Part shown: one piece after another, positions 1-15,680 of the stretch
How positions within the stretch are numbered: the first letter of the stretch is position 1
Layout of the letters: every line of letters starts with the position of its first letter
Source: Tolumonas lignilytica
GTDB lineage: Bacteria; Pseudomonadota; Gammaproteobacteria; Enterobacterales; Aeromonadaceae
NCBI RefSeq assembly: GCF_000527035.1
Contig: NZ_AZUK01000001.1
Span: 3,034,501 to 3,098,500, forward strand
DNA length: 64,000 nt
Direction: 5' to 3'
Notes under the pieces: model-generated
The model's database searches: none
What the model was told of the DNA's origin: nothing
What the model saw: the letters and a program-made list of their open reading frames with translations, nothing else
Made by a program: the position numbers and the translations under genes

Positions 1-415
1 TAATTGTTTCTGCCATTGAGTCATCGAACGCTAAAACGTAGCGGATCGAAGCGGCATTAACCCCTGGTATTTCCTGTGACAATAGCGATGGCGTGACGAT
101 AAAGCTTTTAATAAATGAGGGTTTTAATTTTGAATTTGATTCATCTAATTCAATTCTGAGTATTTCGGCTTTATCTGTTGAGCTTTGTATTTCCCCTACA
201 TCATCGAGTGCTATTAAAGCTAAAGGTGATACACCAAAAAAAGCAGCTATCGGGATCATTTTATCTTTCTTTGGCTCAGAGCCGCCTTGATCGAGCTCTT
301 TGCACCATAGAGTCACTGTCTGGTTGGAGACGCCAATAGCTCTTGCCAGATCCGCCTTAGACTTATCCTGCAAATTCAGTAATTCATTAATCTTTTGAGC
401 TGTTGATTTAGCCAT
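1..415 (-). CDS. CI/LexA-type phage repressor, C-terminus cut by window edge
   Basis: Reading leftward from an ATG at 415, the product starts MAKSTAQKINELLNL and has an N-terminal helix-turn-helix (KADLARAIGVSNQTVTLW, about residues 18-35). A linker follows, and near residue 130 comes FDDSMAET. This resembles the GDSM-type motif around the catalytic serine of S24 (LexA/CI) self-cleaving peptidases. The family represses lytic promoters as a dimer and is inactivated by RecA-stimulated autocleavage in SOS. It is divergent from the Cro-like gene at 565, which makes this the primary immunity switch. The catalytic lysine would lie outside the window. Confidence 0.85.
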   Translation of the reverse strand, partial: MAKSTAQKINELLNLQDKSKADLARAIGVSNQTVTLWCKELDQGGSEPKKDKMIPIAAFFGVSPLALIALDDVGEIQSSTDKAEILRIELDESNSKLKPSFIKSFIVTPSLLSQEIPGVNAASIRYVLAFDDSMAETI

Positions 416-481
416 TTAGTACCAGCCATTTTTAAAAGAGTACACATTTCGCAATCATACAAGCAGTGCTTTATTTTTCCA

Positions 482-530
482 CTTGATGAAAACTCAAGCG
501 CTACTTGACATAAATCCGCTTATGATCAAG
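482..530. promoter_or_regulatory. putative repressor/Cro operators
   Basis: Between the divergent repressor and Cro genes are two dyads sharing the half-site CTTGA/TCAAG. One is a 17-bp palindrome, CTTGA-N7-TCAAG, at 482-498. The other is wider, with CTTGA at 504-508 and TCAAG at 526-530, and it covers the promoter predicted at 505-533. Position and shared half-sites suggest repressor/Cro binding. No footprint can be inferred from sequence alone. Confidence 0.55.
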
Positions 531-533
531 AAT
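505..533 (+). promoter_or_regulatory. rightward early promoter (PR-like)
   Basis: A consensus -35 TTGACA at 505-510 is followed after 17 bp by AAGAAT (528-533), a 4/6 match to the -10 consensus. It is correctly placed to transcribe cro and the early operon and overlaps the second operator dyad. Confidence 0.55.
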
Positions 534-564
534 CTCTTTATTGAATCATAAAGAGGTAGTTGAT

Positions 565-783
565 ATGCAAAACCAAGACAAAACGCCACTAGAAAAAGCA
601 ATTAATTCTGCCGGGAGTCAGGTTCTTCTGGCTGAAATGCTTGGTGTAACACCGCAAGCCGTACAGCAATGGAAAAAAAGTAACAAAGTCCCAGCAGAGC
701 GAGTGATTTCAGTGGAGCGTATTACCGGCGTTAGCCGTCACGATATCCGTCCTGATATTTATCCACGCGAATCAGCCGCTTAA
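565..783 (+). CDS. Cro/YdaS-type DNA-binding regulator
   Basis: A 72-residue protein with a helix-turn-helix (LAEMLGVTPQAVQQWKK). The C-terminal half, VPAERVISVERITGVSRHDIRPDIYP, is the hallmark of the YdaS/Cro family of phage regulators. The ATG at 565 is preferred over an upstream TTG at 541 because AAGAGG (551-556) sits 8 bp before it. As the first gene rightward of the divergent repressor, its likely role is to bind the shared operators and promote lytic development. YdaS was once described as an antitoxin, but position supports a Cro role here. Confidence 0.85.
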   Translation: MQNQDKTPLEKAINSAGSQVLLAEMLGVTPQAVQQWKKSNKVPAERVISVERITGVSRHDIRPDIYPRESAA

Positions 784-850
784 CCACAACTTAAGGATAA
801 ACAATCCATTCACAAGCGCTTGTCAATTCAATGACATCTGAGAGGTATCT

Positions 851-1366
851 ATGAAGGGAGAAAATCAGCTATTTCCCGAGGGACTGTGTGAGGCAATCAA
901 TCAGTGGAAACGCGTCGCTACACGAAAAAATATTTTACTTTCCATTGAGGACGCATTCTTCCTCCTTAAGGCGCAGGGCAAGCAATTGCCTTTTGAGCTG
1001 GCAGCACAGGGTAGCGAAGCCAATCACCGCCGCATTGAGCGCAATCTGATGAGTTTTGAAGACGTCAGAACGTTGTCAGCAGAACGGCGTCTGTTTTTCC
1101 TGACGTTCTATCCCGCCGTGATCTTGGCAATGCCGCTTGAAATCAAAGCCAAGTTCTTTGAGACAACATTCGGATCATACGGGGTCACGTTTTATGAGCC
1201 AGTAAAAATTGACCCGTCGCAATTCAAACAGTTGGTTTGTTCGCTGAATGAGTCAATAGGGCGGCTGAATATTGATGTTATCAACGGGAACGATGGCATG
1301 GCGTACATAGCACAGATGCGTGATGCGTTGGAGCGGGCCTCATCGACTGGATACAGAGCAGCATGA
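851..1366 (+). CDS. early phage protein in CII/YdaT position
   Basis: A 171-residue soluble protein directly after cro, with a GAGAGG ribosome site. I do not recognise a domain with certainty. In Rac-type and related lambdoid prophages this slot holds YdaT or a CII-type regulator, and the predicted helical content (ERNLMSFEDVRTLSAERRLFFL) is compatible with either. The stop overlaps the next possible start as ATGA at 1363-1366. Function unassigned; an early regulatory role is inferred from position only. Confidence 0.6.
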   Translation: MKGENQLFPEGLCEAINQWKRVATRKNILLSIEDAFFLLKAQGKQLPFELAAQGSEANHRRIERNLMSFEDVRTLSAERRLFFLTFYPAVILAMPLEIKAKFFETTFGSYGVTFYEPVKIDPSQFKQLVCSLNESIGRLNIDVINGNDGMAYIAQMRDALERASSTGYRAA

Positions 1367-1455
1367 AGCAGGAAATAAAAAGCCCGAGCGTTGCGGGAAC
1401 AACCTCAGGCGGCGAATCGTTCAACAACCACGAAGAAGGATTAAAAAGATGGTAG
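1363..1455 (+). CDS. possible 30-residue peptide
   Basis: An ATG at 1363 overlaps the preceding stop (ATGA) and opens a 30-codon frame ending TAG at 1455. It bridges to the next gene at 1449 with a 7-bp overlap. Such chained overlaps are typical of this operon, but the ribosome site is weak and no family is recognised. It may instead be a translational link. Confidence 0.3.
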   Translation: MKQEIKSPSVAGTTSGGESFNNHEEGLKRW

Positions 1456-1628
1456 CAGTCGGAGACATTTTAGGCAAATTCAGTTCGCGTAAAGCGGCTG
1501 AACAAGAGGCGGCTCGTCTTGGTTACACGAAGACCAAAGCGGGCTGGATGGGTTCAAAGCCTGGCGCACAGATCATCTATCTGCCAGCAACTAAACGTTA
1601 TCAAGTGCAGATGGTGGTGCCAGCATGA
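1449..1628 (+). CDS. small hypothetical early phage protein
   Basis: A 59-residue basic protein (GDILGKFSSRKAAEQEAARL and a C-terminal RYQVQMVVPA). The ATG at 1449 is chosen because AAGGA at 1436-1440 precedes it with 8-bp spacing; an upstream GTG at 1320 would lie inside the previous gene. It overlaps the antirepressor start by 4 bases. No family recognised. Confidence 0.65.
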   Translation: MVAVGDILGKFSSRKAAEQEAARLGYTKTKAGWMGSKPGAQIIYLPATKRYQVQMVVPA

Positions 1629-2398
1629 ACATTATTCCATTTAACTTCGAGTCAAAAGAAATTCGCGTTGTTGAGATCAATAATGATCCTTGGTTTGTTG
1701 CAAAAGATGTTGCTGTTGCGCTTGGGTATACAAATACAAACGATGCAATTTCACGCCACTGCAAGGGGGTCGTGAAACGCTACCCCCTTATGACACCAGG
1801 CGGAACGCAGGAAGCTCGTATTATTTCTGAATCTGACGTGCTAAGGCTTATTGTTGGAAGCGCACTTCCAGAAGCAGTTCAGTTTGAAAACTGGGTATTT
1901 GAAACAGTTCTTCCATCTATCCGCAAGAACGGTGGTTACATCGCTGGTCAGGAAACTGATGATCCTGAATTAATCATGGCCAAGGCGCTACAGGTAGCTC
2001 AGAACGTCATCTATAGGAAAACGCTGGAGCTGAAGCAGGCTAAAGAGATCATCGCTATTCAGTCCCCAAAGGCTGAGTTTGCTGATCGCATTGCAAGCGC
2101 CGAAAAAGGAACCCTTATCGGTAATTTCGCTAAGGCGGTTGGATTGGGCCCGAAATCAATTTTCAAAGTATTGCGCGATCAACGAGTGTTAATGAAGGGA
2201 GGTAATCGTCACAACCTGCCATTCCAGGAATACATAGAGCGTGGCTACTTTGAAGTCACAGAGCGGCCGTATGAAGTTAATGACGAAACCCGCATTGCAT
2301 TTACGCCGCTGATCACAGGTAAAGGCCAACAGTGGATCACTCAAAAACTGATCGCGTCTGGCCACCTGAAAGCTATTTCGACGGGGGTTCCGGCATGA
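1625..2398 (+). CDS. BRO-N/KilAC phage antirepressor
   Basis: A 257-residue protein. Residues about 1-105 form a BRO-N (Bro family) DNA-binding domain (NDPWFVAKDVAVALGYTN ... FENWVFETVLPSIRKNGGY). Residues about 145-250 form a KilAC/ANT domain (KAVGLGPKSIFKVLRDQRVL ... TPLITGKGQQWITQKL). Proteins with this architecture relieve repression by binding phage repressors or act as early regulators. It sits in the early operon between regulators and replication genes, with ATGA overlaps on both sides. A second antirepressor of a different family is at 36283. Confidence 0.88.
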   Translation: MNIIPFNFESKEIRVVEINNDPWFVAKDVAVALGYTNTNDAISRHCKGVVKRYPLMTPGGTQEARIISESDVLRLIVGSALPEAVQFENWVFETVLPSIRKNGGYIAGQETDDPELIMAKALQVAQNVIYRKTLELKQAKEIIAIQSPKAEFADRIASAEKGTLIGNFAKAVGLGPKSIFKVLRDQRVLMKGGNRHNLPFQEYIERGYFEVTERPYEVNDETRIAFTPLITGKGQQWITQKLIASGHLKAISTGVPA

Positions 2399-3411
2399 GC
2401 ACTGCAGAAGTAATCGCATTCCCAACACCTCAAATTCAACCGGCAGAGCCACCAAAGGAGGTTCGCGTGGCTGATTGTGATGATGGCTATACAAAAACGG
2501 CAAATGAAATTCAGAAGATGAAATGCAAGATCCGCTTATCTGGGCGTGAGCACAACATCCTCGAAGCGGTCATCTATTCGACATATGGATGGAACAAGAA
2601 ACAGGACAGGCTAACCAATACTTACTTGGCGAATATGTGTGATATGGACCCGTCAGACGTCAACAAAGCACTGATCGAACTAGGTAAGCGCAACGTGATA
2701 ACCATTCAGAAGATTGGTGTAATGAAGCTTGTCGGCATTAATAAAACAGTAAGCGATTGGGTGTTGGATAAGCAACCAAAACCAAAAAAACAAGATTCAA
2801 ATGAAAATGGTGAAATCACCCAGAATTTAGGCGAAATCGCCCAAAGTGATAGGCGGAACCGCCTTTCAGATCGGGCGAAACTACCCAACACCCAATACAG
2901 TCTTACCCAAGACAATAAAGAACTAAAAGATCCTTCGTCCGAGAATCCTGGCGGATTCACAAACGTTGATTCAAATGAGATTGTTCCTATTGAGCAAGAT
3001 TTAAAACCTAATCCCGTTAAAAACCGACCCGATGCGGCAGTGCAAACCCCGAAAGGCGACAAGTGGGGAACCGCTGAAGACCTGCAAGCGGCTGAGTACC
3101 TGTTCAAGAAAATTCAAATTATTCGGCCAACTGCGAAAACCCCGAATTGGCCTGAGTGGGCCAACACTATCCGAATCATGCGAGAGGCCGACGGAAGGAC
3201 TCATCGTGAAATCTGTGAGCTGTTTAAATTTGCCAATCAAGACGCATTCTGGTCATCAAACATCCTGAGCCCGGCAAAACTGCGCGACAAGTGGGACACG
3301 CTCTGCATTCAGAGAGAAACTAATCCAGCTAAAAATCATAAAGCATCTTCCGATGAATGGGCTGCTGCTGCCAAGGATACATCTTGGGGCAAAAACCTGG
3401 GGGGTTGGTAA
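2395..3411 (+). CDS. phage replication protein O-like
   Basis: A 338-residue protein starting at the ATG at 2395, which overlaps the previous stop. Residues about 25-125 match the replication protein O N-terminal winged-helix domain (GYTKTANEIQ, LSGREHNILEAVIYSTYGWNKKQDRL). In lambda-like phages O binds iterons in its own gene and recruits P and DnaB. The middle is a low-complexity linker (residues about 130-225), and the C-terminal part is helical (PNWPEWANTIRIMREADGRTH). The gene is followed immediately by a P-like gene. No clear iteron array was seen by eye within it. Confidence 0.82.
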   Translation: MSTAEVIAFPTPQIQPAEPPKEVRVADCDDGYTKTANEIQKMKCKIRLSGREHNILEAVIYSTYGWNKKQDRLTNTYLANMCDMDPSDVNKALIELGKRNVITIQKIGVMKLVGINKTVSDWVLDKQPKPKKQDSNENGEITQNLGEIAQSDRRNRLSDRAKLPNTQYSLTQDNKELKDPSSENPGGFTNVDSNEIVPIEQDLKPNPVKNRPDAAVQTPKGDKWGTAEDLQAAEYLFKKIQIIRPTAKTPNWPEWANTIRIMREADGRTHREICELFKFANQDAFWSSNILSPAKLRDKWDTLCIQRETNPAKNHKASSDEWAAAAKDTSWGKNLGGW

Positions 3412-3413
3412 GC

Positions 3414-4076
3414 ATGACTATGCAATCACTACAGAAAATCGCAGCAGGGATTACGCCTGACAATCTGCCAGCCATTCCAGCAGAGCGTAAGCCAGTTTTT
3501 ATCTCTGATCGGGATACCGAAGTTGTAAACGAGATATTTGAACGCTTGCAGGCAATATTCCCAGCATGGAAACACGCATTTCCAAAACCAGAGCATCTGG
3601 CAGCTGCAAAATCTGAATGGACCAAAGCGCTGGTTGAAGCGGGTTGCGTGAGTGATGCGCACTTGACGCATGGGTTCCGTATTGCAAGAGAACAGGATAT
3701 CCCATTCTTTCCGGCGCCAGGTCAATTTATTAAGTGGTGTCAGCCAACACCAGAAACACTTGGGATGCCAACTATTGAGCAGGCATTACATGAGATTAGC
3801 CGTCATCGTGCATCACATCCAGCAGTGATTCTAGCCGCAAGAGCGACTCGGTTTGAACGAGAAACGCTATCAGCATCTGAATATCAGCCAGTATTTGAGC
3901 GGTTCTATGAAGTGTTGGTTCGCAGGGTTATGGCAGGAGAAGATCTGTCAGTTGAAATCCCTAAGGCACTCCCTAAACAAAAAGATATTCAAATAAGCCC
4001 TGAGGAGCGTCAGCGTATAGCAGAAAAATGGGGCCCCAAAATACGTGAACTATTTAAACATGGCGGTGCGGTATGA
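3414..4076 (+). CDS. replication protein P-like (DnaB loader)
   Basis: A 220-residue protein with the P-family layout: IFERLQAIFPAWKHAF, then SEWTKALVEAGCVSDAHLTHGFR, then FFPAPGQFIKWCQPTP. Lambda P recruits and loads the host DnaB helicase at the O-bound origin. The start at 3414 lies 2 bp after the O stop behind a G-rich ribosome site. Position after O supports the call. Confidence 0.8.
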   Translation: MTMQSLQKIAAGITPDNLPAIPAERKPVFISDRDTEVVNEIFERLQAIFPAWKHAFPKPEHLAAAKSEWTKALVEAGCVSDAHLTHGFRIAREQDIPFFPAPGQFIKWCQPTPETLGMPTIEQALHEISRHRASHPAVILAARATRFERETLSASEYQPVFERFYEVLVRRVMAGEDLSVEIPKALPKQKDIQISPEERQRIAEKWGPKIRELFKHGGAV

Positions 4077-4231
4077 ACTTCTCAAAACTTTCCAACGATG
4101 AGTTACATGAACTGCTTGCAGCAAGAACACAACATGCTCGGAACATCGATGCAGAACGCGCAGTGCTGGAGGACGAGATCGCCGAAATTCAGACGGTGCT
4201 GAGTGATCGCAAGGAACAGGTGGCAGCATGA
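4073..4231 (+). CDS. small coiled-coil early protein
   Basis: A 52-codon gene chained by ATGA overlaps to both neighbours (start inside the P stop, stop inside the HNH start). The product, MNFSKLSNDELHELLAARTQ then VLEDEIAEIQTVLSDRKEQ, is strongly helical and probably a coiled coil. No family recognised. Confidence 0.65.
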   Translation: MNFSKLSNDELHELLAARTQHARNIDAERAVLEDEIAEIQTVLSDRKEQVAA

Positions 4232-4656
4232 GTTTGAAGCTATCAAAAAAACAACGTGAAGAGTTGCGCATGAAATTTGGCGGTCGTTGCGCCTATTGTG
4301 GTTGTCAGCTTCCAGAAAAAGGATGGCATGCCGATCATGTTAAAGCGGTTTATAGAGAACTTGAGATTGATCGTGAGGCAGGGAAGCAAGGTCAGTTTAA
4401 GCTGAAACAAACTGGAGAAGTATTCAAGCCAGAACATGATTGCCTTGAAAACCTGTTTCCTGCATGCGCTCCATGCAATTTATTTAAATCGACATTTAGC
4501 ATTAATGGATTTAGAGCTGAGATCGGAAGGCAAACAGAACGAGCGCGTGACTATTCAGTTAATTTCAGAACCGCAGAGCGATTTGGTCTGGTTCAGGTAG
4601 TAAGCAAGCCGGTTGTGTTCTGGTTTGAGCAATACCAGGCTGAGGTGACAGCATGA
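4228..4656 (+). CDS. HNH endonuclease
   Basis: A 142-residue protein with a zinc-type HNH nuclease core: CAYCGC at about 22-27, the catalytic WHADHV at about 33-38, and NLFPACAPCN at about 75-84. This is a beta-beta-alpha metal nuclease. In phages these act in DNA metabolism, packaging or as homing-type nucleases. It sits between small replication-region genes, with ATGA overlaps at both ends, so it is an integral operon member. Substrate unknown. Confidence 0.85.
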   Translation: MSLKLSKKQREELRMKFGGRCAYCGCQLPEKGWHADHVKAVYRELEIDREAGKQGQFKLKQTGEVFKPEHDCLENLFPACAPCNLFKSTFSINGFRAEIGRQTERARDYSVNFRTAERFGLVQVVSKPVVFWFEQYQAEVTA

Positions 4657-4991
4657 CAGCCAGAATTGACATATCACCAGTTGATATAGAACGTTTGGTC
4701 AAACAGCAGGTAACAGGGAAGATGCTTGCCGTGAAATATCGATGTAATCCAAAGACAATTTGCCGGAAGCTGAAAGATACAGGCGATCAGCGAGTCATTG
4801 ATGCACTGAGGAAAAACTCTGTCAGCCGTAAATTCAAAAAGAACCAATCGGGATGCCGAAAAGCCGCCGAAATGGTTTTAATGGGGGAGAAGATGGCCGT
4901 TATTGAGCTGGTCACTGGATGCTCAACGCAGACAATTTCAAGACTCAGGAGTGAGCTGTCAGAGATATTGCAATATGTATCATTAGGATAA
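4653..4991 (+). CDS. helix-turn-helix early protein
   Basis: A 112-residue basic protein with two apparent helix-turn-helix segments: VTGKMLAVKYRCNPKTICRKL (about 21-41) and KMAVIELVTGCSTQTISRLRSEL (about 79-101). The second resembles FlhC/transposase-like HTHs. It is the last gene of the early run before the cargo block. A pair of ATTAGGATA repeats follows its 3' end and could be its own operator (inference). Confidence 0.6.
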   Translation: MTARIDISPVDIERLVKQQVTGKMLAVKYRCNPKTICRKLKDTGDQRVIDALRKNSVSRKFKKNQSGCRKAAEMVLMGEKMAVIELVTGCSTQTISRLRSELSEILQYVSLG

Positions 4992-5008
4992 AATGACCTA
5001 TTAGGATA
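4982..5008. repeat. pair of 9-bp direct repeats before the DprA-like gene
   Basis: ATTAGGATA occurs at 4982-4990 and again at 5000-5008, 18 bp start to start. The first copy overlaps the end of the HTH gene. The spacing of nearly two helical turns and the position ahead of the next gene suggest an operator or a duplication. The 79-bp gap has no convincing promoter. Confidence 0.4.
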
Positions 5009-5070
5009 GTTCGTGATATTGTTATTAGTATGAGTTCATATATTGGCGATTAAAAAGGTTTTATTACGAA

Positions 5071-5970
5071 ATGAACCAACTGGATTTTATGTCGGCAATC
5101 GAGTCAGACCCGTTTGATAGAGCTATAGCTCCATTTACTGAAATGGCGGCTTATGAGGCTTTATGGGCTGAACAAGGTGCGACATTTAAAACTATTGCTG
5201 ATAAGTTTCGTGGTAACTCAAATCTACTACCATCTGATTTAGTTGATCCTTCTAAAATTGAAGAATTTAAAGCGATTCTTAGATCCATTTTTGGGAAATA
5301 TAGTGTAAAAAATGTTGGCGTTCGCGTCCATGGCGCAGCTGAATACCCTGCAAAACTAAGAGATGCAAGACATCCAATTGAGTTGCTTTATTATCAGGGT
5401 TGGTGGGATTTGGTTAATACCAGATCTGTTGCTGTCGTTGGATCTAGAAAAGTTTCAGAAGAAGGACGCAGAAGAACAGTTAGGTTGGTTAAGAACCTTG
5501 TCAAGGATGAGTTTACAATAATATCAGGGCTTGCAGAAGGTGTTGATTCTGCTGCTCATACAGCAGCGCTTGCTCTTGGTGGGAAGACTATTGCTGTAAT
5601 TGGCACTCCATTATCGCATTTTTATCCGAAACAAAATAAAAACCTTCAAGAAAGAATAAGGGAAGATTTTTTGTTGATTAGTCAGGTACCTTTTAAGCGG
5701 TATCTCGATCAGGATTATCGTAGTAACCGGATTTTCTTCCCTGAACGTAATGTAACAATGTCTGCACTTAGTGAGGCAACAATTATTGTGGAAGCCAGCG
5801 ACACATCAGGAACATTGACGCAGGCAAGAGCGGCTCTTCACCAAGGTAGAAAGTTATTTATACTGGAATCCTGCTTCCATAATCCAGATATCTCATGGCC
5901 TAAAAAATATGCTGAACTAGGTGCTATTCGTGTTTCTGACTATGAAGACATCAAGAGGGTTTTGGGATGA
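5071..5970 (+). CDS. DprA-like Rossmann protein paired with a PRTase
   Basis: A 299-residue protein with the DprA/Smf (LOG-like Rossmann) core: HGAAEYPAKL (about 88-96), VVGSRKVS (122-129), SGLAEGVDSAAH (152-163), FPERN (223-227) and EASDTSGTLTQA (241-252). Canonical DprA binds single-stranded DNA and loads RecA during transformation. This protein has a different ~80-residue N-terminus and stops right after the Rossmann domain, lacking the C-terminal winged helix of chromosomal DprA. It overlaps the next gene by 4 bp (ATGA), so the two are co-translated. A prophage has no evident need for competence, so a role in nucleic-acid or nucleotide sensing, plausibly defence, is inferred. Confidence 0.85.
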   Translation: MNQLDFMSAIESDPFDRAIAPFTEMAAYEALWAEQGATFKTIADKFRGNSNLLPSDLVDPSKIEEFKAILRSIFGKYSVKNVGVRVHGAAEYPAKLRDARHPIELLYYQGWWDLVNTRSVAVVGSRKVSEEGRRRTVRLVKNLVKDEFTIISGLAEGVDSAAHTAALALGGKTIAVIGTPLSHFYPKQNKNLQERIREDFLLISQVPFKRYLDQDYRSNRIFFPERNVTMSALSEATIIVEASDTSGTLTQARAALHQGRKLFILESCFHNPDISWPKKYAELGAIRVSDYEDIKRVLG

Positions 5971-6614
5971 AATTCAAATGGTCTCAAATTGATGAGCTGC
6001 TATTACCAGACCACTATTATCTTAGCCTAGATGATGAATGTTTCTTCCTTGGTGAATATACCGCAAGGCAGGGAGCAAATTATAGCGATACAAATCAGTT
6101 GATCATTAATCTCAAAAAGGGTGTTGATCGTAAGGGTAGAACTGAATACAAATACAAGATATCTGCTATTGATGAAGTGGCACAATATCTGGCTAATAAC
6201 ATTAATGCAAAAGGATGGACATTAGTTCCAGTGCCCCCGTCAAAATCAAAAGATGACCCAATGTATGACGATCGCCTAGTACAAATCTTGGCGAAGGCAA
6301 AAATGTTAAACAGTGATATAGATTACAGGGAATTAGTTGTTCAGATTGGATCATACCAAGCTGCGCACTTGACTAATGGGAATCGACCACGTCCTGATGC
6401 GTTGGCTGATAGGTATCAAATAGACAATTCGTTAATGGGTGGCCTTAGAGACATAATCATATTTGATGATGTTTTAACTGCGGGCAGTCATTTTGCTGCA
6501 ATGAAGAGATTTATTTCTGACCATGTCCCAGATAAACGGATTGTAGGCTTGTTTGTAGCCAGAACAACGAGAGATTCTGATGACCCATTTGAGGATTTTG
6601 AGGTGATAGCTTAA
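5967..6614 (+). CDS. phosphoribosyltransferase-like partner of DprA-like protein
   Basis: A 215-residue protein. IIIFDDVLTAGSHFAAMKR (163-181) is a type I phosphoribosyltransferase PRPP-binding loop (DDVxTxG). LVPVPPSKSKDDP (about 87-97) is like the VPVP segment of ComF-type PRTases. The N-terminal ~80 residues are unassigned. ComF and DprA are both natural-competence proteins in free-living bacteria; here their relatives form a two-gene unit on a prophage with a 4-bp overlap. The acidic pair and loop look intact, so PRPP or nucleotide binding is likely. The substrate is unknown. Confidence 0.82.
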   Translation: MKFKWSQIDELLLPDHYYLSLDDECFFLGEYTARQGANYSDTNQLIINLKKGVDRKGRTEYKYKISAIDEVAQYLANNINAKGWTLVPVPPSKSKDDPMYDDRLVQILAKAKMLNSDIDYRELVVQIGSYQAAHLTNGNRPRPDALADRYQIDNSLMGGLRDIIIFDDVLTAGSHFAAMKRFISDHVPDKRIVGLFVARTTRDSDDPFEDFEVIA

Positions 6615-6629
6615 TTATTACAGCATGGG

Positions 6630-7901
6630 TCAGATAACCACTGGTAAATCATCCCAACGTGTCGTATAAGCCGGTGACAAGTTACCACGCTTCATAGCCC
6701 ACTCCTGCTTCACCCCCTGACCTGCAAACCAGATATTGCCTTTTCCGCTGTGGTTTATCTTGTCGATTACCGTCATAAGTTCTTTGCTGTCTGTCCGACT
6801 ACTGATCTCATCAAACAAGCTCATCTGATAAATGCCCGGCTCGAAAAAATCAGCCAGCATGATCCCAGCTTTCATGTATCTGTAACCTGGCTTCCAAATA
6901 CCACGCAGCATTCTTATGGCGTAGAGAATTATGTCTCTGCTGTCATCTGTTGGAATTGGCATTCTTGCGGTGGCAGAGTTTGAGTAATAGGGCTCAGTTT
7001 TTGAGAATGGATTGGTTCGCAGGAATACGGTAACCGACTGCGCATATTGTTTTTCTAACCTGAGTTTTTCTGCTGCCCGGACAGCATAATTGCAGATCGC
7101 TTCGCGTATATGCTGAAACTGTTTGATACGTTGACCAAACGAGCGTGAGCAGACTATCTGTTTTTTGGTTGGCGACACATCATCAAGTTCAAGACATGAT
7201 TCGCCATTCAACTCATGGATAGTTCGCTCAAGCACAACGGAAAACTGTTTACGGATCAGCTTTGGATTTGCATTTGCCAATTGCAAAGCCGTTTTAATAC
7301 CCATCATCTGCAGTTGCTTCGTTAACTTTCGGCCAACACCCCACACTTCCTCTATTGGTGTTATGGATAACAATTTACGCTGCCGGTCACGTGAAGTCAG
7401 GTCAACAACTCCGCCGGTTGCCGGATATATCTTTGCAGCATGGTTAGCCAGCTTTGCCAGTGTCTTGGTTGGTGCAATTCCAACGCAAACAGTAATGCCT
7501 GTCCACTGGACAACTGTTTGTCTTACCTGTTTGCCGAAATCAACCAATGACATCGCATTTGAAACGCCGGTTAAATCCAAAAAGGATTCGTCTATTGAGT
7601 AAACCTCAACTCTTGGTGCCAGCATTTCAAGAACAGACATGACGCGGTTTGAAATATCTGCATATAGAGCATAGTTGGATGAGAACACCTGCACACCGTA
7701 GTAGGTGAGTTGATCTTGTATCTGGAAAAGCGGAACGCCCATCTTGATACCGATCTCTTTAGCTTCCCTGGAACGAGCCACCACGCAGCCATCGTTATTT
7801 GATAGCACAACGATGGGGGTGTTTTTTAAGTCAGGTCGGAATAGTTTTTCGCATGATGCGTAAAAATTATTGCAGTCAACCAAGGCAAAGGTCTTAGACA
7901 T
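6630..7901 (-). CDS. umuC: UmuC-type Y-family DNA polymerase (Pol V catalytic subunit)
   Basis: A 423-residue protein, full length for UmuC. It has the N-terminal metal-binding DCNNFYASCEKLFRP (from residue 9), the catalytic YSIDESFLDLTG (about 100-111) and helix-hairpin-helix VWGVGRKLTKQL. A clamp-binding motif QMSLFD lies near residue 356. The family performs error-prone translesion synthesis with UmuD'2. It overlaps umuD by 8 bp and is convergent with the DprA/PRTase pair, 15 bp from its end. A prophage copy raises host mutagenesis and survival after SOS. Confidence 0.95.
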   Translation of the reverse strand: MSKTFALVDCNNFYASCEKLFRPDLKNTPIVVLSNNDGCVVARSREAKEIGIKMGVPLFQIQDQLTYYGVQVFSSNYALYADISNRVMSVLEMLAPRVEVYSIDESFLDLTGVSNAMSLVDFGKQVRQTVVQWTGITVCVGIAPTKTLAKLANHAAKIYPATGGVVDLTSRDRQRKLLSITPIEEVWGVGRKLTKQLQMMGIKTALQLANANPKLIRKQFSVVLERTIHELNGESCLELDDVSPTKKQIVCSRSFGQRIKQFQHIREAICNYAVRAAEKLRLEKQYAQSVTVFLRTNPFSKTEPYYSNSATARMPIPTDDSRDIILYAIRMLRGIWKPGYRYMKAGIMLADFFEPGIYQMSLFDEISSRTDSKELMTVIDKINHSGKGNIWFAGQGVKQEWAMKRGNLSPAYTTRWDDLPVVI

Positions 7902-8331
7902 GGCGATTCAGCATATTCTTAATGACGTTAGTGACAACACCGAAAATATCAAGTTCCAAACCATCAGTTATCTCGATTAGTTGATATTTTGGGTTATGCG
8001 GTATTAATCGGTATGTCGGCTTAGTACAAAGCTCTTTAACTGTCATTTCTCCATTGAGGCAGGCAATAACAATGTGACCGTGCTCTGCAGTGATCGACCG
8101 GTCAACAACCAAAATGTCGCCAGGATATATGCCAACACCAATCATGGATAAACCTGAAGCACGAACAAGAAAGGTTGCTGATGGATGGCGAATGCACAAC
8201 TCGTTTAAATCCAGCGTCTTCTCGATGTAGTCCTGCGCTGGTGATGGAAAGCCCGCTTGAACAGATTCAAGAAACAGCGGAAGTGGGAAGTGTGTTGCTG
8301 GGTCTAATTGACCTAATAGTTGTGTTTGCAT
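7894..8331 (-). CDS. umuD: UmuD-type SOS mutagenesis protein
   Basis: A 145-residue S24 peptidase-like protein. It has a predicted autocleavage site Ala26-Gly27 (SVQAGFPSP), nucleophile Ser62 (ASGLSM) and general-base Lys99 (MTVKEL). RecA-stimulated cleavage gives UmuD', which joins UmuC to make Pol V. The gene begins 19 bp from a near-consensus LexA box (8350-8365) and is translated ahead of umuC. Confidence 0.94.
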   Translation of the reverse strand: MQTQLLGQLDPATHFPLPLFLESVQAGFPSPAQDYIEKTLDLNELCIRHPSATFLVRASGLSMIGVGIYPGDILVVDRSITAEHGHIVIACLNGEMTVKELCTKPTYRLIPHNPKYQLIEITDGLELDIFGVVTNVIKNMLNRHV

Positions 8332-8339
8332 ACGGACAA

Positions 8340-8376
8340 TTACAAATATGTGTACATATATACAGTATATTTGTAA
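8340..8376 (-). promoter_or_regulatory. LexA (SOS) box nested in a larger palindrome
   Basis: GTGTACATATATACAG at 8350-8365 matches the LexA consensus CTGT-N8-ACAG except for its first base. It is flanked exactly by a 10-bp perfect inverted repeat, TTACAAATAT (8340-8349) and ATATTTGTAA (8367-8376). Position upstream of umuD implies SOS control. The outer dyad could be a second regulator's site. Confidence 0.8.
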
Positions 8377-8443
8377 CGTTTGGGTTGTCTATAGATGGAA
8401 AATAAAAACTCCATGAAGAGGCTGATTAGGAATTAAATAGAAA

Positions 8444-8554
8444 TCAGGAATCAGCGAGCTCTACAAAATCATCATACTGACGAGATAAAACCAGATACTC
8501 ATCCCTTAGAAGCTGGACGTGTTCAAGCTTTAGTAAAAAAGCAGAATGAAGTAG
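8444..8554 (-). pseudogene. start-less open frame, probable gene remnant
   Basis: On the minus strand a 36-codon open frame ends at a TGA (8444-8446) and reads LLHSAFLLKLEHVQ ... RDEYLVLSRQYDDF ... LADS, which has a protein-like helical composition. There is an in-frame stop just upstream (8555-8557) and no plausible start. The best reading is the 3' remnant of a phage gene left by recombination when the cargo was inserted. Weak evidence. Confidence 0.3.
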
Positions 8555-8589
8555 TCAACTCAAACTGTGGCCAATTTTATTTGATCATT

Positions 8590-8685
8590 TCACTTTGCTG
8601 TTCTCCACACTGCGTATGCTACGGTATTCTCAACATCGATTTGTTCTTGTTGATCTATTGGGAGAGAGCCGATGTTGAGAGACAT
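8590..8685 (-). CDS. possible 31-residue peptide
   Basis: An ATG at 8685 opens a short frame reading MSLNIGSLPIDQQEQIDVEN and ending VAYAVWRTAK, stop at 8590. The sequence looks protein-like and would be the only gene in the 8405-8764 gap. No clear ribosome site is seen and an 11-bp inverted repeat overlaps it. No family recognised. Confidence 0.3.
   Translation of the reverse strand: MSLNIGSLPIDQQEQIDVENTVAYAVWRTAK
8628..8680. repeat. 11-bp perfect inverted repeat
   Basis: TCTCAACATCG (8628-8638) and CGATGTTGAGA (8670-8680) are perfect inverted copies separated by 31 bp. There is no T-run, so it is not a simple terminator. It could be an RNA structure or a recombination remnant between the UmuDC operon and the lipoprotein genes. 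The rest of 8405-8627 shows only the start-less frame listed separately. Confidence 0.5.
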
Positions 8686-8717
8686 TTTAATTGCATTAAT
8701 AATTTGATTTGTGAGGT

Positions 8718-8750
8718 AAAAAACAGGAAAGAAGCTCCTCCCTGTTTTAT
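8718..8750 (-). terminator. intrinsic terminator of the lipoprotein gene
   Basis: On the minus strand AAAACAGG ... CCTGTTTTTT forms an 8-bp stem (8741-8748 with 8720-8727) ending in a T-run, 15 bp beyond the stop of the 8765-9598 gene. Confidence 0.75.
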
Positions 8751-8764
8751 TGTGCTGGTGGTTG

Positions 8765-9598
8765 TTATCGCAGTTGAACAGCAACCGGTTTGTTCACGGG
8801 TTGTTTAGCATTCATGCCAACTTTCTTGTATTTAACTACAACGGTCTTCCCTGTTTTGCTATCCACACGTCGTGTGATTGATTCGTGGGTATCTGCAAAA
8901 CCTGCAAAAGGATGGACCCACCCGTCACAATAAACCCATGGTGCAGATGACATTTCTTCTAGTTTCAAATGACCTGAGCTAAATGATGGCAGGCCAATGC
9001 CATACGCGGCATACTTCCCAGTAGGCAATGATGGGTCAATGCGATTAATTAACTCTTGAGAAACAAGAGTTGAAAATTTCACTTTTGCCACTGATTTATC
9101 TTTATCAGACACAGCTAATTCGCCGTTATCCATAATAAAGGTTGCACCATTTAGCCGAGCAGCATCTTGTTTTGTGGCGTATTTGAACGCCTTTTCCAAC
9201 GAAGCCTGAGAAGCTGGATCATCGCTAGGATCGATCTTCATTAAAACCAAATATCCATAGTCAGGGTGTTTATAGTTATCCTGCCCCAGCAACATAAGGT
9301 TCGCGACACCGAAAGCCAGATTTCCGACAGTGAGTGCTCCTGTAGCCATCGCATCAACAGATGTTTTACCAGCAATGATAGCAGCATTGGTGGTTGCCGC
9401 CGCCGCTGACATATCCGCCTTGGTGGCATCTTCATCCCTATTGGTAGAGCTGTTCCCAGCCAGTAGCTCCATGTTTGATGATAAACTCAGTGTTTTATCT
9501 CCAGTAAAAGGCATGTTGCCGGTTGGCATTTCATGTTTAGCTGCACACCCACTCAATATAATGGTGAAAATTGCCGCGGCAGCACATAAATTTTTCAT
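8765..9598 (-). CDS. prophage-encoded lipoprotein
   Basis: A 277-residue protein with a lipoprotein signal peptide (MKNLCAAAAIFTIILSGCAAK; lipobox LSGC with Cys18). A small-residue-rich hydrophobic stretch follows (AAAATTNAAIIAGKTSVDAMATGALTV, about 64-90) and then a soluble domain. It should be anchored to the outer membrane or inner-membrane periplasmic face. It is followed by its own terminator and preceded on the same strand by another exported protein, the usual layout of lysogenic-conversion (moron) genes. No family recognised; surface exclusion or stress roles are speculative. Confidence 0.75.
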   Translation of the reverse strand: MKNLCAAAAIFTIILSGCAAKHEMPTGNMPFTGDKTLSLSSNMELLAGNSSTNRDEDATKADMSAAAATTNAAIIAGKTSVDAMATGALTVGNLAFGVANLMLLGQDNYKHPDYGYLVLMKIDPSDDPASQASLEKAFKYATKQDAARLNGATFIMDNGELAVSDKDKSVAKVKFSTLVSQELINRIDPSLPTGKYAAYGIGLPSFSSGHLKLEEMSSAPWVYCDGWVHPFAGFADTHESITRRVDSKTGKTVVVKYKKVGMNAKQPVNKPVAVQLR

Positions 9599-9637
9599 AT
9601 ATAAACCTTTGTATTTTTTGTAAGAAGAAGCTGGAAA

Positions 9638-10369
9638 TCAGCACTGAGGCGCTGGATATGTCCATTGGTTATTAAATGAATCGAACTCCGGCCGGACCTG
9701 AACGTGAATTTTGCATCCGTTTTCATAGGTTACAACGCAGTTTCCATTGGTGCATTGAGATGAGCAGCGAATGGTTGGAGTGTTTGGTCGGCAATTTCTT
9801 TCTGATACTTGGGATGGCGTTGATGTGGATTGTGATGGAATTTTCTTTTTGACGTTAACTGCGCCAGGAATGCTAAAAACTCTATATAAAACACATTTAC
9901 CTTTAAAGTGCTCTTGGCAATTATTTTGCGCAACACTTAAATCCGCTTCTGGGTTAGTTGATCCATATTGAGCAAAAAAGTCACCATCCTTTTTGTCCTC
10001 CTGTTCTATAATTACAAACCCAGGGTCCGTGATTGTCCACTGCAACTTGCAGTCTGGCATGCCACAACTGTGCATTGCACTTTGCACGGCTTTATCACTG
10101 CTTTTAGTTGACCAGCCAAGACCTACATCGGTTTTATTTACTGCTCGAGATATCGCAACAATGTTGTGTAATATACAGTCATGGGTAGTTTTTCCATTGT
10201 TGCACAATTTAAGCGCTTCACTATCTGCGCTTTTCTGTGATTTTCTTACAGCCCAACCGAAAGCGTCTCCGCTACCAAATGCAATTGATGTATAAACCTT
10301 CTCTGCATGGACTTGTGATGACGCAAGAAGGGTGAAAATGGCGAATAGTAAACCAGTTAGTTTTTTCAT
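9638..10369 (-). CDS. exported cysteine-rich protein (DUF4189-like)
   Basis: A 243-residue protein with a Sec signal peptide (MKKLTGLLFAIFTLLASSQVHA). A domain of about 110 residues follows with repeated AFG..AFGWAVRKSQKSADSEALKLC-type and CILHNIVAISRA segments, resembling DUF4189-type exported proteins. The last ~50 residues carry paired cysteines (CSSQCTNGNC ... NGCKIHV). Start chosen at 10369, where AGGA lies 5-6 bp upstream; a longer frame to 10438 has no signal peptide at its start. It forms a unit with the lipoprotein downstream. Function unknown. Confidence 0.7.
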   Translation of the reverse strand: MKKLTGLLFAIFTLLASSQVHAEKVYTSIAFGSGDAFGWAVRKSQKSADSEALKLCNNGKTTHDCILHNIVAISRAVNKTDVGLGWSTKSSDKAVQSAMHSCGMPDCKLQWTITDPGFVIIEQEDKKDGDFFAQYGSTNPEADLSVAQNNCQEHFKGKCVLYRVFSIPGAVNVKKKIPSQSTSTPSQVSERNCRPNTPTIRCSSQCTNGNCVVTYENGCKIHVQVRPEFDSFNNQWTYPAPQC

Positions 10370-10510
10370 GTTTTTCCTATGTTTAATTGTTTTAAACTTC
10401 CATTTTTGCATTTTGCGAAAGATTACACTACTTAGCATTTGCGTTGCGAATGCAAGATGTTAAGTTAATCATGAACTGACAAAGCTCATTCGCATTTTGC
10501 AAATAAACTG

Positions 10511-10539
10511 CTGTATATCCGATCACCTTTTGATATAAT
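10511..10539 (+). promoter_or_regulatory. extended -10 promoter for the resumed nin region
   Basis: TGATATAAT (10531-10539) is a perfect extended -10 (TGn-TATAAT); the -35 region CTGTAT at 10511-10516 is weak. It lies 120 bp ahead of the first nin gene and just beyond the cargo block, so it could restart transcription there. Confidence 0.6.
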
Positions 10540-10658
10540 GCAAAGCACAGGGTGACTCCTGTCTATCGCTTCAAACTGTATCCATGCGTGAGCATCGAAA
10601 CAGACAATTCGACTTCATGCGTCTGCTGATTCGGCTATAACGAATCGGGAGAATTGGC

Positions 10659-10841
10659 ATGCCTGAAACATCAAGTTCACGGCTCGCTCAAGAGCTGCGC
10701 AATCTAATCCTGTCTCTGTCTGATGAAGCGGTTATTTCGCTCATGAGTCATGCCTGTGAATCAAAAATACAGCACCTGTTTTTAGCCAAAACCCAATCAC
10801 CAGGTTTGGTCGGGATGCCTGTTGTCGGCGGTGTCCAGTAA
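10659..10841 (+). CDS. small nin-region protein
   Basis: A 60-residue protein (helical N-terminus SSRLAQELRNLILSLSDEAVISLMSH) behind GGGAGA. Its stop overlaps the next start (TAATG). The upstream leader holds a GATTCG/CGAATC hairpin (about 10629-10647). No family recognised. Confidence 0.65.
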   Translation: MPETSSSRLAQELRNLILSLSDEAVISLMSHACESKIQHLFLAKTQSPGLVGMPVVGGVQ

Positions 10842-11290
10842 TGGCTGAACTGACTCACGTTATCCAATCAAGAAACGACCTTCCATGCGCATACAACGCT
10901 ATGGCACGGTTGTCTATTGATGGGCCGCATGAGGTATCCATTAAACCAGTCAAAAAAACCAGAACCCTAAATCAGAACGCAGTCTTTCACATGTGGATGA
11001 ATGAACTGTCAGCGTTCCTGATCGCCGCAGGTCGCAAATTTGCCACTCCAGAGTGGAGCAAAGATGCGATGAAGCATTCATTCCTTGGTTATATCGAAAC
11101 TGATCGCGTTGATGTTGTTACCGGAGCGGTAATGACGGTCCGAGAACTTCAGCACACAAGCCGATTAAACACCGGGGCTATGTATCACTTCATGGAACAG
11201 GTAGAAGCATGGTGCGCCAGCATCGGATGCCTGCTAACCATCCCCAACAATTCCGAATACATGAAATTAAAAATGGAGCAGAACCAATGA
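10841..11290 (+). CDS. ninB: NinB-family recombination protein
   Basis: A 149-residue protein with the NinB signature: VKKTRTLNQNAVFHMWMNELSAFL (about 38-61), a central EWSKDAMKHSFLGY and RELQHTSRLNTGAMYHFMEQVEAWC. In lambda, NinB (Orf) binds single-stranded DNA and modulates Red/RecA-type recombination. It is chained to its neighbours by 1- and 4-bp overlaps. Confidence 0.82.
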   Translation: MAELTHVIQSRNDLPCAYNAMARLSIDGPHEVSIKPVKKTRTLNQNAVFHMWMNELSAFLIAAGRKFATPEWSKDAMKHSFLGYIETDRVDVVTGAVMTVRELQHTSRLNTGAMYHFMEQVEAWCASIGCLLTIPNNSEYMKLKMEQNQ

Positions 11291-11451
11291 GTTTACTTTC
11301 AGCCATCCAGTCAGCATTCGGCGTTGCTCCGCATATCCAGGCAGCAATGCAGCAGCTATTCCAAGTGCAGCCGGCACCAATTAAACACTCGCGCATTACC
11401 GGCATTGCTAAATCCCGCCGCGCAGCCAAGCAGCGGAGAAACCGCAAATGA
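11287..11451 (+). CDS. small basic nin-region protein
   Basis: 54 residues, starting inside the NinB stop (ATGA) and ending inside the next start (ATGA). The C-terminus is very basic (GIAKSRRAAKQRRNRK), suggesting nucleic-acid binding. No family recognised. Confidence 0.65.
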   Translation: MSLLSAIQSAFGVAPHIQAAMQQLFQVQPAPIKHSRITGIAKSRRAAKQRRNRK

Positions 11452-11702
11452 CCAGTGCGTATTTAAAACATCTGATGACCGAACGAACTGACTCTGCAGT
11501 TCGTGAAATGGTTGTTTCGGTGATGTGTGATGAAAAGCCACGGTCAATCCCAGCAATCAGCCGGGCAATTAGGGAGATGAATGGACACGAACTGCCGGAT
11601 AAAGAAATCCGCACGGCACTGAACAACCCTCGGGAGATCGGCTGGAACGTGATGCGGATTTGGGGCGATGTGGCCACTGAATATAAGTTGGTGAAGGCAT
11701 GA
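11448..11702 (+). CDS. small nin-region protein, possible winged helix
   Basis: 84 residues. The pattern REMVVSVMCDEKPRSIPAISRAIREMNG followed by LPDKEIRTAL and a basic/hydrophobic tail is compatible with a winged-helix fold. ATGA overlaps on both sides. No family recognised. Confidence 0.65.
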   Translation: MTSAYLKHLMTERTDSAVREMVVSVMCDEKPRSIPAISRAIREMNGHELPDKEIRTALNNPREIGWNVMRIWGDVATEYKLVKA

Positions 11703-11755
11703 TTAAAATCATCGTGCTTGTTGTTGTCTTTGTGATCATGCTGGAGATTTTATGA
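11699..11755 (+). CDS. 18-residue membrane peptide
   Basis: An 18-codon frame starting in the previous stop (ATGA) and stopping in the NinG start (ATGA). The product MIKIIVLVVVFVIMLEIL is one hydrophobic helix. The exact ATGA chaining at both ends, the rule for this operon, argues that it is translated. Confidence 0.55.
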   Translation: MIKIIVLVVVFVIMLEIL

Positions 11756-12384
11756 ATGAATTAAAGCCACGCATCTGTCCAGAGTGCTGGAAAGAATTCA
11801 CTCCGCGAAACTCTATGCAAAAGTGCGATTCAATATCCTGCGCCATAGCGTATGCAAAGAAAAAACAGGAGCAGAAAGACAAACGTGAAGCTGTAGCTGC
11901 TACCAGGGAAAAGAGGCGAAATTTGCGTGAACGGAAGATTGCTCTAAAAAAAAGAAGTGACTGGGTTGCTGATGTTCAACGTGAATTTAATAAATTCATA
12001 CGACTTCGCGATGCCGATATGCCGTGCATTAGTTGTGGTGAAAAAAACCCTCCAATGCTTCATGGCGGACAATGGGATTGCGGACATTTTTTGTCAGTGG
12101 GACACGCTCCTGAATTGCGGTTTGAAGAACTTAATGCACATAAGCAATGCAAGTCATGTAACGGTGGCGCTGGTCACTACGCACATAAAAACAAAACAGT
12201 TAGTCAGAAATATCGCGAAAACCTGATTCAAAAAATCGGGCTACCCAAAGTCGAATGGTTAGAGGGTCCGCACGAACCAAAGAAATACACCATAGACCAG
12301 TTGAAAGAATTATTGGTGCTTTACAGATCAAAGCAACGAGAAATAAACAAGCAATTGCGCGCACAGATAGAGCAAGGAGAATGA
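11752..12384 (+). CDS. ninG: NinG/Rap recombination endonuclease
   Basis: A 210-residue protein with the NinG pattern: CPECWKEFTPRNSMQKCDSISCAIAYA (9-35), a basic helix (about 40-70), then PCISCGEKNPPMLHGGQWDCGHFLSVG and CKSCNGGAGHY zinc/HNH-like motifs. Lambda NinG (Rap) is a structure-specific nuclease targeting recombination intermediates. It starts inside the 18-residue peptide's stop. Confidence 0.9.
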   Translation: MNELKPRICPECWKEFTPRNSMQKCDSISCAIAYAKKKQEQKDKREAVAATREKRRNLRERKIALKKRSDWVADVQREFNKFIRLRDADMPCISCGEKNPPMLHGGQWDCGHFLSVGHAPELRFEELNAHKQCKSCNGGAGHYAHKNKTVSQKYRENLIQKIGLPKVEWLEGPHEPKKYTIDQLKELLVLYRSKQREINKQLRAQIEQGE

Positions 12385-12385
12385 T

Positions 12386-12613
12386 ATGGGTTTATTTGCG
12401 CAACATTCAATTCATGAGATTCACAACGCTATCGCAGCCACCGCCATTTCAAATGTTTCATCTAACTGTATTTATGGAAAGCATAACGATCAGTTAATGA
12501 GTTATGAACAATTCATTCGTAACCAGCCATACGCAAATGCTGCGGCTCAACAAAATATCCACCAAAACCTAATTATAGATGGTGAGTGCGAAGAGGTTGA
12601 TCGTGATGATTAA
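12386..12613 (+). CDS. small nin-region protein
   Basis: 75 residues, preceded by AGGAGA one base after the NinG stop. It has a polar Asn/Gln-rich C-terminal half and an acidic end (GECEEVDRDD). It overlaps the next gene by 8 bp. No family recognised. Confidence 0.6.
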   Translation: MGLFAQHSIHEIHNAIAATAISNVSSNCIYGKHNDQLMSYEQFIRNQPYANAAAQQNIHQNLIIDGECEEVDRDD

Positions 12614-12779
12614 TCCAAGCTATGGCGTAAAAGTTATTAGGCCGGAACTAATGATAGAAGTAATCACAACTCCTGGATTGTCATATAGCCAGCTTTTGCT
12701 GATTGAGCGCGCAAAACTAATTATGTTGTGGATTATTTGGTTTTTGTCGATTTTAGCAATAAATAGTTTATCAAGATAA
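12606..12779 (+). CDS. small membrane protein before Q
   Basis: 57 residues, with one C-terminal transmembrane helix (LIMLWIIWFLSILAIN, about 38-53). The ATG at 12606 lies within the end of the previous gene. No family recognised. Confidence 0.6.
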   Translation: MINPSYGVKVIRPELMIEVITTPGLSYSQLLLIERAKLIMLWIIWFLSILAINSLSR

Positions 12780-12789
12780 GGCGGATAAA

Positions 12790-13470
12790 ATGTCTTTAGA
12801 AACATATCTTCTGCTTCACCAGGCAAAAACCGTGGCCACTGATTCTCGTGGAAGTTCTCATGGAATTGGACGGGATGAGATCCTTCATGCTGGGGCTGTT
12901 GCTGCGCTGAAATATCCGATTGGTCATCATTTGTTTTTAGCTGAAAACGGTGATGAGAAATCACTATTGGCACTGATCCAGTTTGCTAACGAACATTTGC
13001 CAGAACTAACAGAAGAAGTGGTTGCTGTGGCGATGGGTAAGCCAACGACTGAACAGTGGAACCGATTGGTTAGAGCGCATCCTAGGTATGAACGTGAGAG
13101 AAAACGTGCTGATAAAATAAAGTCACAAGCAAAGTTCGTGCTGCGGAAAGGCGATGAGGGGGAAGCTGAAAGACTAACCAAGATAGCTGAAAAGGTGAAA
13201 TCTGATGCCGTTGCGCATTGCCGGAAAGACATTCTATCTACTGGTAGCTGCCCATCATGCAGAGGCGATGGAATTGCTGTTAGACGAAAAACAACCTGCG
13301 TAACTTGCCGGGGGACAGGAAAAATAATTCCGGATGACGCATCAATAAAACGGATTCATGGCGATGAGGTTTACGCAAAATTCAGAAAAGTAGTCGAGTC
13401 GATGTTATTCGATAAATCTGACTGGGTGCGCATGTATTATCGTCAAATTAATTGCGAAAAATGCGAGTAG
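12790..13470 (+). CDS. Q: Q-type late antiterminator
   Basis: A 226-residue protein with a paired CxxCxGxG zinc motif (CPSCRGDG and CVTCRGTG, about 154-176) in a helical protein, as in phage 82/21-type Q antiterminators. Q binds near the late promoter and the paused polymerase and lets it read through downstream terminators. The late-type promoter and two intrinsic terminators immediately downstream fit this role. Confidence 0.85.
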   Translation: MSLETYLLLHQAKTVATDSRGSSHGIGRDEILHAGAVAALKYPIGHHLFLAENGDEKSLLALIQFANEHLPELTEEVVAVAMGKPTTEQWNRLVRAHPRYERERKRADKIKSQAKFVLRKGDEGEAERLTKIAEKVKSDAVAHCRKDILSTGSCPSCRGDGIAVRRKTTCVTCRGTGKIIPDDASIKRIHGDEVYAKFRKVVESMLFDKSDWVRMYYRQINCEKCE

Positions 13471-13474
13471 GTTA

Positions 13475-13503
13475 TTGCGGTATTTTTAAGCAGTTGGTAA
13501 GAT
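13475..13503 (+). promoter_or_regulatory. late promoter (PR'-like)
   Basis: TTGCGG (13475-13480), a 17-bp spacer, then TAAGAT (13498-13503), directly after the Q gene and just before tandem terminators. This is the standard arrangement of a Q-dependent late promoter. Confidence 0.7.
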
Positions 13504-13514
13504 TTACTAAACAT

Positions 13515-13547
13515 GGGCGCTCTCTGATTGAAGCGCCTTTTTATTTT
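13515..13547 (+). terminator. late leader terminator 1 (tR'-like)
   Basis: The stem GGCGCT (13516-13521)/AGCGCC (13532-13537) is followed by TTTTTATTTT. It lies about 10 bp past the expected late transcript start, so it would block late genes unless Q acts. Confidence 0.85.
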
Positions 13548-13551
13548 AATG

Positions 13552-13573
13552 ACCCGCCAAGTGCGGGTTTTTT
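13552..13573 (+). terminator. late leader terminator 2
   Basis: The stem ACCCGC (13552-13557)/GCGGGT (13563-13568) is followed by a six-T run, in tandem with the preceding terminator. Confidence 0.8.
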
Positions 13574-13587
13574 ATTGCCTGAAATAT

Positions 13588-14158: not shown

Positions 14159-14172
14159 CCCCGGAGGCGGTA

Positions 14173-14676: not shown

Positions 14677-14685
14677 GGATGTCTC

Positions 14686-14916: not shown

Positions 14917-15044
14917 GTGGTGATCCTTCTTGGCAGCCGGAAAGACGGAAGTGAATGAGCAACGCTGGCAAGCATCGCGAAGTTTGCGCTCAATATCCGG
15001 AGGTCTTATGCAAGAAGAAGATTGGGGTGTCTCGTAATAATTTT

Positions 15045-15120: not shown

Positions 15121-15124
15121 ATTC

Positions 15125-15225: not shown

Positions 15226-15230
15226 ATTCA

Positions 15231-15679: not shown

Positions 15680-15680
15680 T

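Follow-up and report, generated by a model that had tools for sequence, protein, structure and literature searches.

A prophage-borne DprA-like and phosphoribosyltransferase-like gene pair of Tolumonas lignilytica as a probable ShosTA-type module with a compact toxin

Pairs of genes for a DprA-like protein and a phosphoribosyltransferase (PRTase) have been described as antiphage systems, and the account given here follows the accessible portions of the papers cited. One such pair, DprA plus PRTase, from the P2 hotspot confers protection against T7 and lambda; its authors suggest that DprA senses DNA and that the PRTase is an abortive effector, and they refer to shosTA, syrTA, and rqlHI as systems in which a DprA homologue is the antitoxin (PMC9122126). 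According to a review that cites Pu et al. 2025, ShosT is toxic, acts as a PRTase and as a pyrophosphatase, and perturbs the purine pools, with DNA duplications, filamentation, and death as the result; ShosA is a DNA-binding antitoxin that counteracts ShosT, and T7 Gp0.7 is one trigger (PMC12593503). ShosTA is also among the systems switched on by phage single-strand-binding protein (PMC10732053), and the Pf phage PfAC02a carries a ShosTA, a DprA-like plus a PRTase gene, that was found by annotation (PMC11878078). In the related RqlHI system, as far as the available text goes, RqlH is a RecQ-like helicase with a C-terminal PRTase, and a PRTase residue of RqlH is required for its SOS-inducing toxicity.

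The solved ShosT structures (8zvb, 8zvc, 8zvd, 9w2p, and 9w2q) are a full-length match (977 bits) to a 424-aa protein of phage P2_4C9, here called the long type, and the solved ShosA 9vzo matches the partner of that protein with 736 bits. The phage-tested P2-hotspot pair is likely of the long type, because P2_4C9 carries it. In long ShosT, weak matches to HAD (residues 30 to 127) and to PRTase (residues 303 to 357) were found, both below the Pfam cut-offs. In six aligned proteins its first HAD motif is without the usual nucleophilic Asp. For the shorter, compact type considered below, the open-licence literature, a body that leaves most subscription papers and outside preprints beyond reach, yielded no dedicated work and no toxicity or plaque data.

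The locus compared here with these systems lies in a 64,000-nucleotide stretch of the T. lignilytica genome (the window) and has the following features:

5071..5970, + strand: DprA-like ShosA gene, 299 aa (open reading frame list; PADLOC and Pfam matches)
5967..6614, + strand: PRTase-like ShosT gene, compact, 215 aa (open reading frame list; PADLOC match)
5967..5970, + strand: ATGA stop/start overlap of the ShosA and ShosT genes (sequence reading)
6465..6485, + strand: DDVLTAG loop, ShosT residues 167 to 173 (sequence reading; row conservation)

The two open reading frames and the ATGA overlap described in an earlier, sequence-only reading of the window were borne out at these positions. Both proteins matched the PADLOC models for ShosTA. 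The same reading had suggested that DprA-PRTase pairs are listed in antiphage catalogues, and this was right, given PADLOC ShosTA and the P2-hotspot pair in the accessible part of its report (PMC9122126). Three sequence features of ShosTA as PADLOC catalogues it were found at the locus: a match to the ShosA model, a match to the ShosT model, and adjacent genes with the DprA-like gene first. A toxin of about 424 aa with an HAD-like half, the feature of the long type, was not found, as the window toxin has 215 aa; nor was the RecQ-like helicase fused to a PRTase that marks PsyrTA and RqlHI. Judged from its sequence, the pair falls under ShosTA in the PADLOC catalogue and does not belong to the long type with solved structures. 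We consider it probable, at roughly 0.75, that the pair is a prophage-borne toxin-antitoxin defence module of the ShosTA type and of a compact subtype. This reading takes in the full-length family matches, linkage, gene order, invariant residues, and position in a prophage early region observed for the pair. Against it stand the missing HAD-like half of the toxin and its weak resemblance to solved ShosT, the higher score of the antitoxin with a solved canonical DprA than with solved ShosA, and the breadth of the PADLOC ShosA model, all given below. The kind of defence is already known, and the single feature that merits further study is the compact architecture of the toxin.

The ShosA gene product matched Pfam DNA_processg_A with 194 bits (cut-off, 29.6) over residues 80 to 286 and the PADLOC ShosA model PDLC03961 with 328.5 bits (E = 9.7e-99) over residues 24 to 296; it also matched PADLOC PsyrA (95.8 bits). 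The protein stops 13 residues past the DNA_processg_A match, a tail too short to accommodate a C-terminal winged helix, whose absence had been read correctly from the sequence. Canonical DprA belongs to the same DNA_processg_A family, but window ShosA lacks its C-terminal domain and did not reach the equivalog cut-offs (163.3 against 191.15 for TIGR00732 and 139 against 495 for PRK10736). Elsewhere in the same genome (3.63 Mb, 9 contigs) there is a separate dprA, located in a 380-aa open frame and with 38% identity to window ShosA. The model PDLC03961 is not specific, as a 204-aa segment of this DprA scored 216.9 bits. The DprA-type residues R126 and E241 and the N-terminal residues E24, Y28, E29, and W32 were invariant in 87 of 87 alignment rows. 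These rows are the window plus 86 loci, kept at less than 72% mutual toxin identity from 108 loci with full-length toxin and antitoxin, and invariance was thus counted on selected, full-length rows.

The ShosT gene product matched the PADLOC ShosT model PDLC03962 with 159.7 bits (E = 2.5e-47) over residues 6 to 212. No Pfam family matched it up to E = 1, and the curated DprA/ComF-type models gave it a marginal ComF match only (E = 0.11). When a 7-row profile of compact toxins was compared with solved chains, the best E value was 0.16, the top chains were PRTases aligned over the PRPP loop, and no solved ShosT appeared up to E = 1. The DDVLTAG motif, which corresponds to the PRPP-binding loop of type I PRTases, is present as had been claimed: D167, D168, and G173 occur in 87 of the 87 selected rows and T171 in 80 of them, and K64, P90, S92, D101, and R103 are likewise invariant. 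The product is regarded as a PRTase because it has this loop, matches PADLOC ShosT, and heads a tail of weak profile matches in which the six tested were ComF/GntX-like. These six, lower-scoring matches of the 87-row toxin profile in the phylum, had GntX and ComF as best NCBIfam models, all below the curated cut-offs. Six ComF-like proteins scored 28 to 57 bits on PDLC03962. As PDLC03961 is unspecific and PDLC03962 separates better, the identification is carried by the toxin gene and by linkage.

Linkage was counted over 128 loci from toxin-alignment scans, the best 80 of 107 genome-contig loci plus 48 new ones of 49 viral loci, a set in which some viral contigs repeat genome loci. A ShosA-like open reading frame lay within 500 bases of the toxin gene and on the same strand in 122 of the 128, always upstream of the toxin, and mostly unlinked homologues were not what was seen. 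One further locus (L008), whose contig starts inside the toxin gene, was left out of this count. The six unpaired loci are one with a transposase-like open reading frame upstream of the toxin (L028), one with a DprA-like match 1.3 kb away (L077), one in which no DprA-like open reading frame was found (L080), two with the toxin at a contig edge (L117 and L125), and one in which the toxin scored 49 bits and a DprA-like match lay 854 bases away (L142). The exact ATGA overlap was present in 13 of the 122 linked pairs examined; tight coupling of that form is therefore not general.

The pair is sparsely distributed. Among 394 genomes of the order, a toxin search at E ≤ 0.001 gave six matches, namely the genome itself, G177, G369, G377, and two marginal ones (about 6.6e-4), so that a clear match was present in 4 of 394 genomes, own genome included. 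The antitoxin stood beside the toxin in all three of the other genomes with clear matches. The 87-row toxin profile gave 175 matches at E ≤ 0.001 among 398 genomes of the phylum and exceeded 41 bits in two only, the genome itself (266 bits) and G177 (270 bits). For the long-type toxin, the same 398 genomes held one strong match (G713, 499 bits), and the other 41 passing E 0.001 scored at most 26 bits. Pairs were found on one Escherichia coli plasmid, one Enterobacter plasmid, phages Mana and Riah, and viral contigs. In many of the fetched loci the module is borne by mobile elements, and pairs were found on large chromosomal contigs too.

The window pair shares several features with long ShosTA, represented by the phage P2_4C9 pair (L005; ShosA 9vzo and 8zva). 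In both, the DprA-like gene lies directly upstream of the PRTase-like gene, the antitoxin matches ShosA models, the toxin matches PDLC03962, and the Asp pair of the PRPP loop is present. However, the 424-aa long ShosT has an HAD-like first half that is absent from the 215-aa window toxin and its relatives, and compact antitoxins are about 28 to 30% identical to long ones and form a separate clade. The long-type model PDLC03012 gave 973 bits with P2_4C9 ShosT and no match to the window toxin up to E = 1. Compact and long toxin profiles aligned in the PRTase part alone, with a probability of 57.5 (E = 1e-4); the antitoxin profiles aligned with a probability of 99.8 over most of their length, including the N-terminal region. 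On PDLC03962, the four compact toxins tested scored 141 to 170 bits and two long ones 180 to 186, with 180 bits for the ShosT that has solved structures. In a 31-row antitoxin tree, a clade of 24 compact antitoxins (98/93) stood apart from a clade of five long ones (100/99), and the DprA of this genome and one Streptomyces DprA fell outside both; branches in this tree are long, its root is arbitrary, and these two DprA proteins are its sole outsiders. The rows nearest to window ShosA were from pairs of a viral contig, Lelliottia, and an E. coli plasmid. PsyrTA and RqlHI resemble the window pair in combining a DprA-like antitoxin with a PRTase-bearing toxin. In contrast to RqlH as described in the available text, the window toxin is a PRTase only, and PsyrT gave no match to it up to E = 1.

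One alternative is that the compact pair is a family of its own, with a DprA-derived antitoxin and a ComF-derived toxin of independent origin that the PADLOC models have merged with ShosTA. It would then have its own trigger and substrate, and its role would still be in defence or addiction. The two antitoxin clades, the weak similarity between compact and long toxins, and the missing HAD-like half are consistent with this possibility, as are the ComF/GntX-like weak matches, though these were below curated cut-offs. The window antitoxin also scored higher against the solved canonical DprA 3uqz (112.7 bits) than against the solved ShosA 9vzo (71.7 bits). However, PDLC03962 takes both toxin types with scores not far apart, the two antitoxin profiles align over most of their length, and the clades come from a tree of the long branches, arbitrary root, and few outsiders noted above. 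We therefore regard a separate family as possible but doubtful. If it were true, competence-type genes would have been recruited for defence against phages on more than one occasion, and a PRTase of 215 aa would be a complete effector on its own, with no HAD-like half.

Toxin-antitoxin pairs can stabilise mobile elements, and the frequency with which the module is borne by such elements would fit a pair that chiefly stabilises the prophage, with phage defence secondary or absent. This addiction role appears unlikely, because pairs also occur on large chromosomal contigs and because the P2-hotspot relative protects against phages in the accessible part of its report (PMC9122126). It is also conceivable that canonical dprA/comF-type genes were acquired by the phage for DNA uptake or recombination: the ShosA gene product has all core DprA motifs, and the pair lies in a phage early region with NinB and NinG recombination genes. 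However, the DprA equivalog cut-offs were not reached, a separate chromosomal dprA exists, and the compact clade, in which the nearest relatives of window ShosA are other pairs, leaves out the DprA of the same genome. Moreover, the two genes form a fixed unit here, unlike canonical DprA and ComF, and the unit is conserved across distant bacteria with the linkage counted above. Acquisition of competence genes was rejected on these grounds as highly improbable. The sequence-only reading had left a choice between defence and anti-defence for the two-component module. The PADLOC matches and the published P2-hotspot pair, as far as its report is available, favour defence, and anti-defence was discarded, nothing having been seen in its favour.

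Under the preferred reading, a ShosTA-type defence module, the toxicity, trigger, substrate, and protective effect of the window pair would be those suggested by analogy with long ShosTA and RqlHI. The DprA-like ShosA would bind DNA and either restrain ShosT or repair its effect, and infection by another phage might upset this restraint. An unchecked PRTase could then consume or misuse PRPP and nucleotides. The expected consequences are an imbalance of nucleotides and damage to DNA, and the cell would halt or die before the intruding phage multiplies. In this way the lineage of the resident prophage may be protected. The DprA-like partner had been proposed as a sensor of ligand or DNA; its published role, in the accessible text, is that of an antitoxin and DNA binder, and so not of a sensor only.

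The locus thus probably adds one member, in a lambdoid prophage, to a kind of defence whose mechanism is partly understood. If a PRTase of 215 aa is toxic by itself and is kept in check by ShosA, then basic activity would not require the HAD-like half seen in solved ShosT, and the compact branch would be a natural minimal version of ShosTA. Because PDLC03961 takes canonical DprA and PDLC03962 scores both toxins alike, ShosTA surveys may mix types: tallies obtained in this way can lump two toxin architectures together, and a search by the ShosA model alone retrieves canonical DprA as well.

A long-ShosT profile was run over 148 loci and the window. No long-type protein was found in the window, and the matches were in loci fetched for the long type, apart from one of 71 bits in L147 and a partial one of 65 bits in L051. 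On this result, the idea that a long HAD-PRTase generally accompanies the pair as a third component was rejected.

Some plasmids carry both types. Three Rhizobiaceae plasmids (L143:3020-6812, L148:3026-6812, and L152:2026-5798) have two complete modules of different subtype arranged tail to tail, with DprA followed by the long HAD-PRTase on one strand and the compact PRTase with its own DprA on the other; two sequences of another Rhizobium plasmid (H47/H63) suggest the same arrangement. Four Streptomycetaceae plasmids (L147:2914-6364, L149:2917-6374, L150:938-4158, and L151:2806-5874) encode a protein that shares about 25% identity with long ShosT. In 4 of the 4 fetched loci it adjoins a DprA gene and a ComF/PRTase gene, the three genes being on one strand in three loci and divergent in L150. 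These loci may be a three-gene variant that links both toxin types. A separate HAD-like open reading frame with a DLDQT motif that is intact by reading lies just upstream of the compact toxin in Chitinophaga (L077, about 4300 to 4800).

PHROG matches confirmed the prophage location claimed from the sequence; 20 neighbouring open reading frames were scanned, and 5 of them had no match. The genes that precede the pair encode a CII-like regulator, an antirepressor (Ant), O- and P-like replication proteins, and an HNH protein, and those that follow it are UmuD-like, NinB, NinG, Q-like, endolysin, terminase, portal, and tail spike genes. This places the pair in a lambdoid prophage, with the replication region on one side and the nin region on the other. 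No near-identical phage was found by megablast of window positions 1 to 14000 against 50,697 phage records. Directly upstream of ShosA, at 4653 to 4991, is a gene for a 112-aa protein with only a sub-threshold HTH match and no PHROG match; a search of the other 74 genomes of the family gave no relative. For an empty-site comparison, 75 genomes of the family were searched, the own genome among them: this gene turned up in 1 and NinB in 2, which left nothing to compare. Promoter-like sites numbered 8 against a shuffle mean of 11.7, and terminator-like sites 4 against 3.4.

On the − strand, opposite to ShosTA, window positions 6630 to 10438 encode UmuC-like and UmuD-like proteins and two possibly exported proteins. 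Of the SOS neighbours described earlier, the UmuD-like gene was supported by PHROG, and the adjacent gene at 6630 to 7901 is, by reading, a putative UmuC-type polymerase gene. Likewise, one exported neighbour, at 9638 to 10438, matched DUF4189 (39.1 bits; cut-off, 25), and the other, at 8765 to 9598, has a lipoprotein-like start by reading alone. An Rfam search of positions 4500 to 16000 at gathering scores gave two tRNAs at 15 kb as the only RNA elements. These are tRNA-Thr(TGT) at 15045 to 15120 and tRNA-Asn(GTT) at 15231 to 15307, which lie within the prophage between the lysis and terminase genes.
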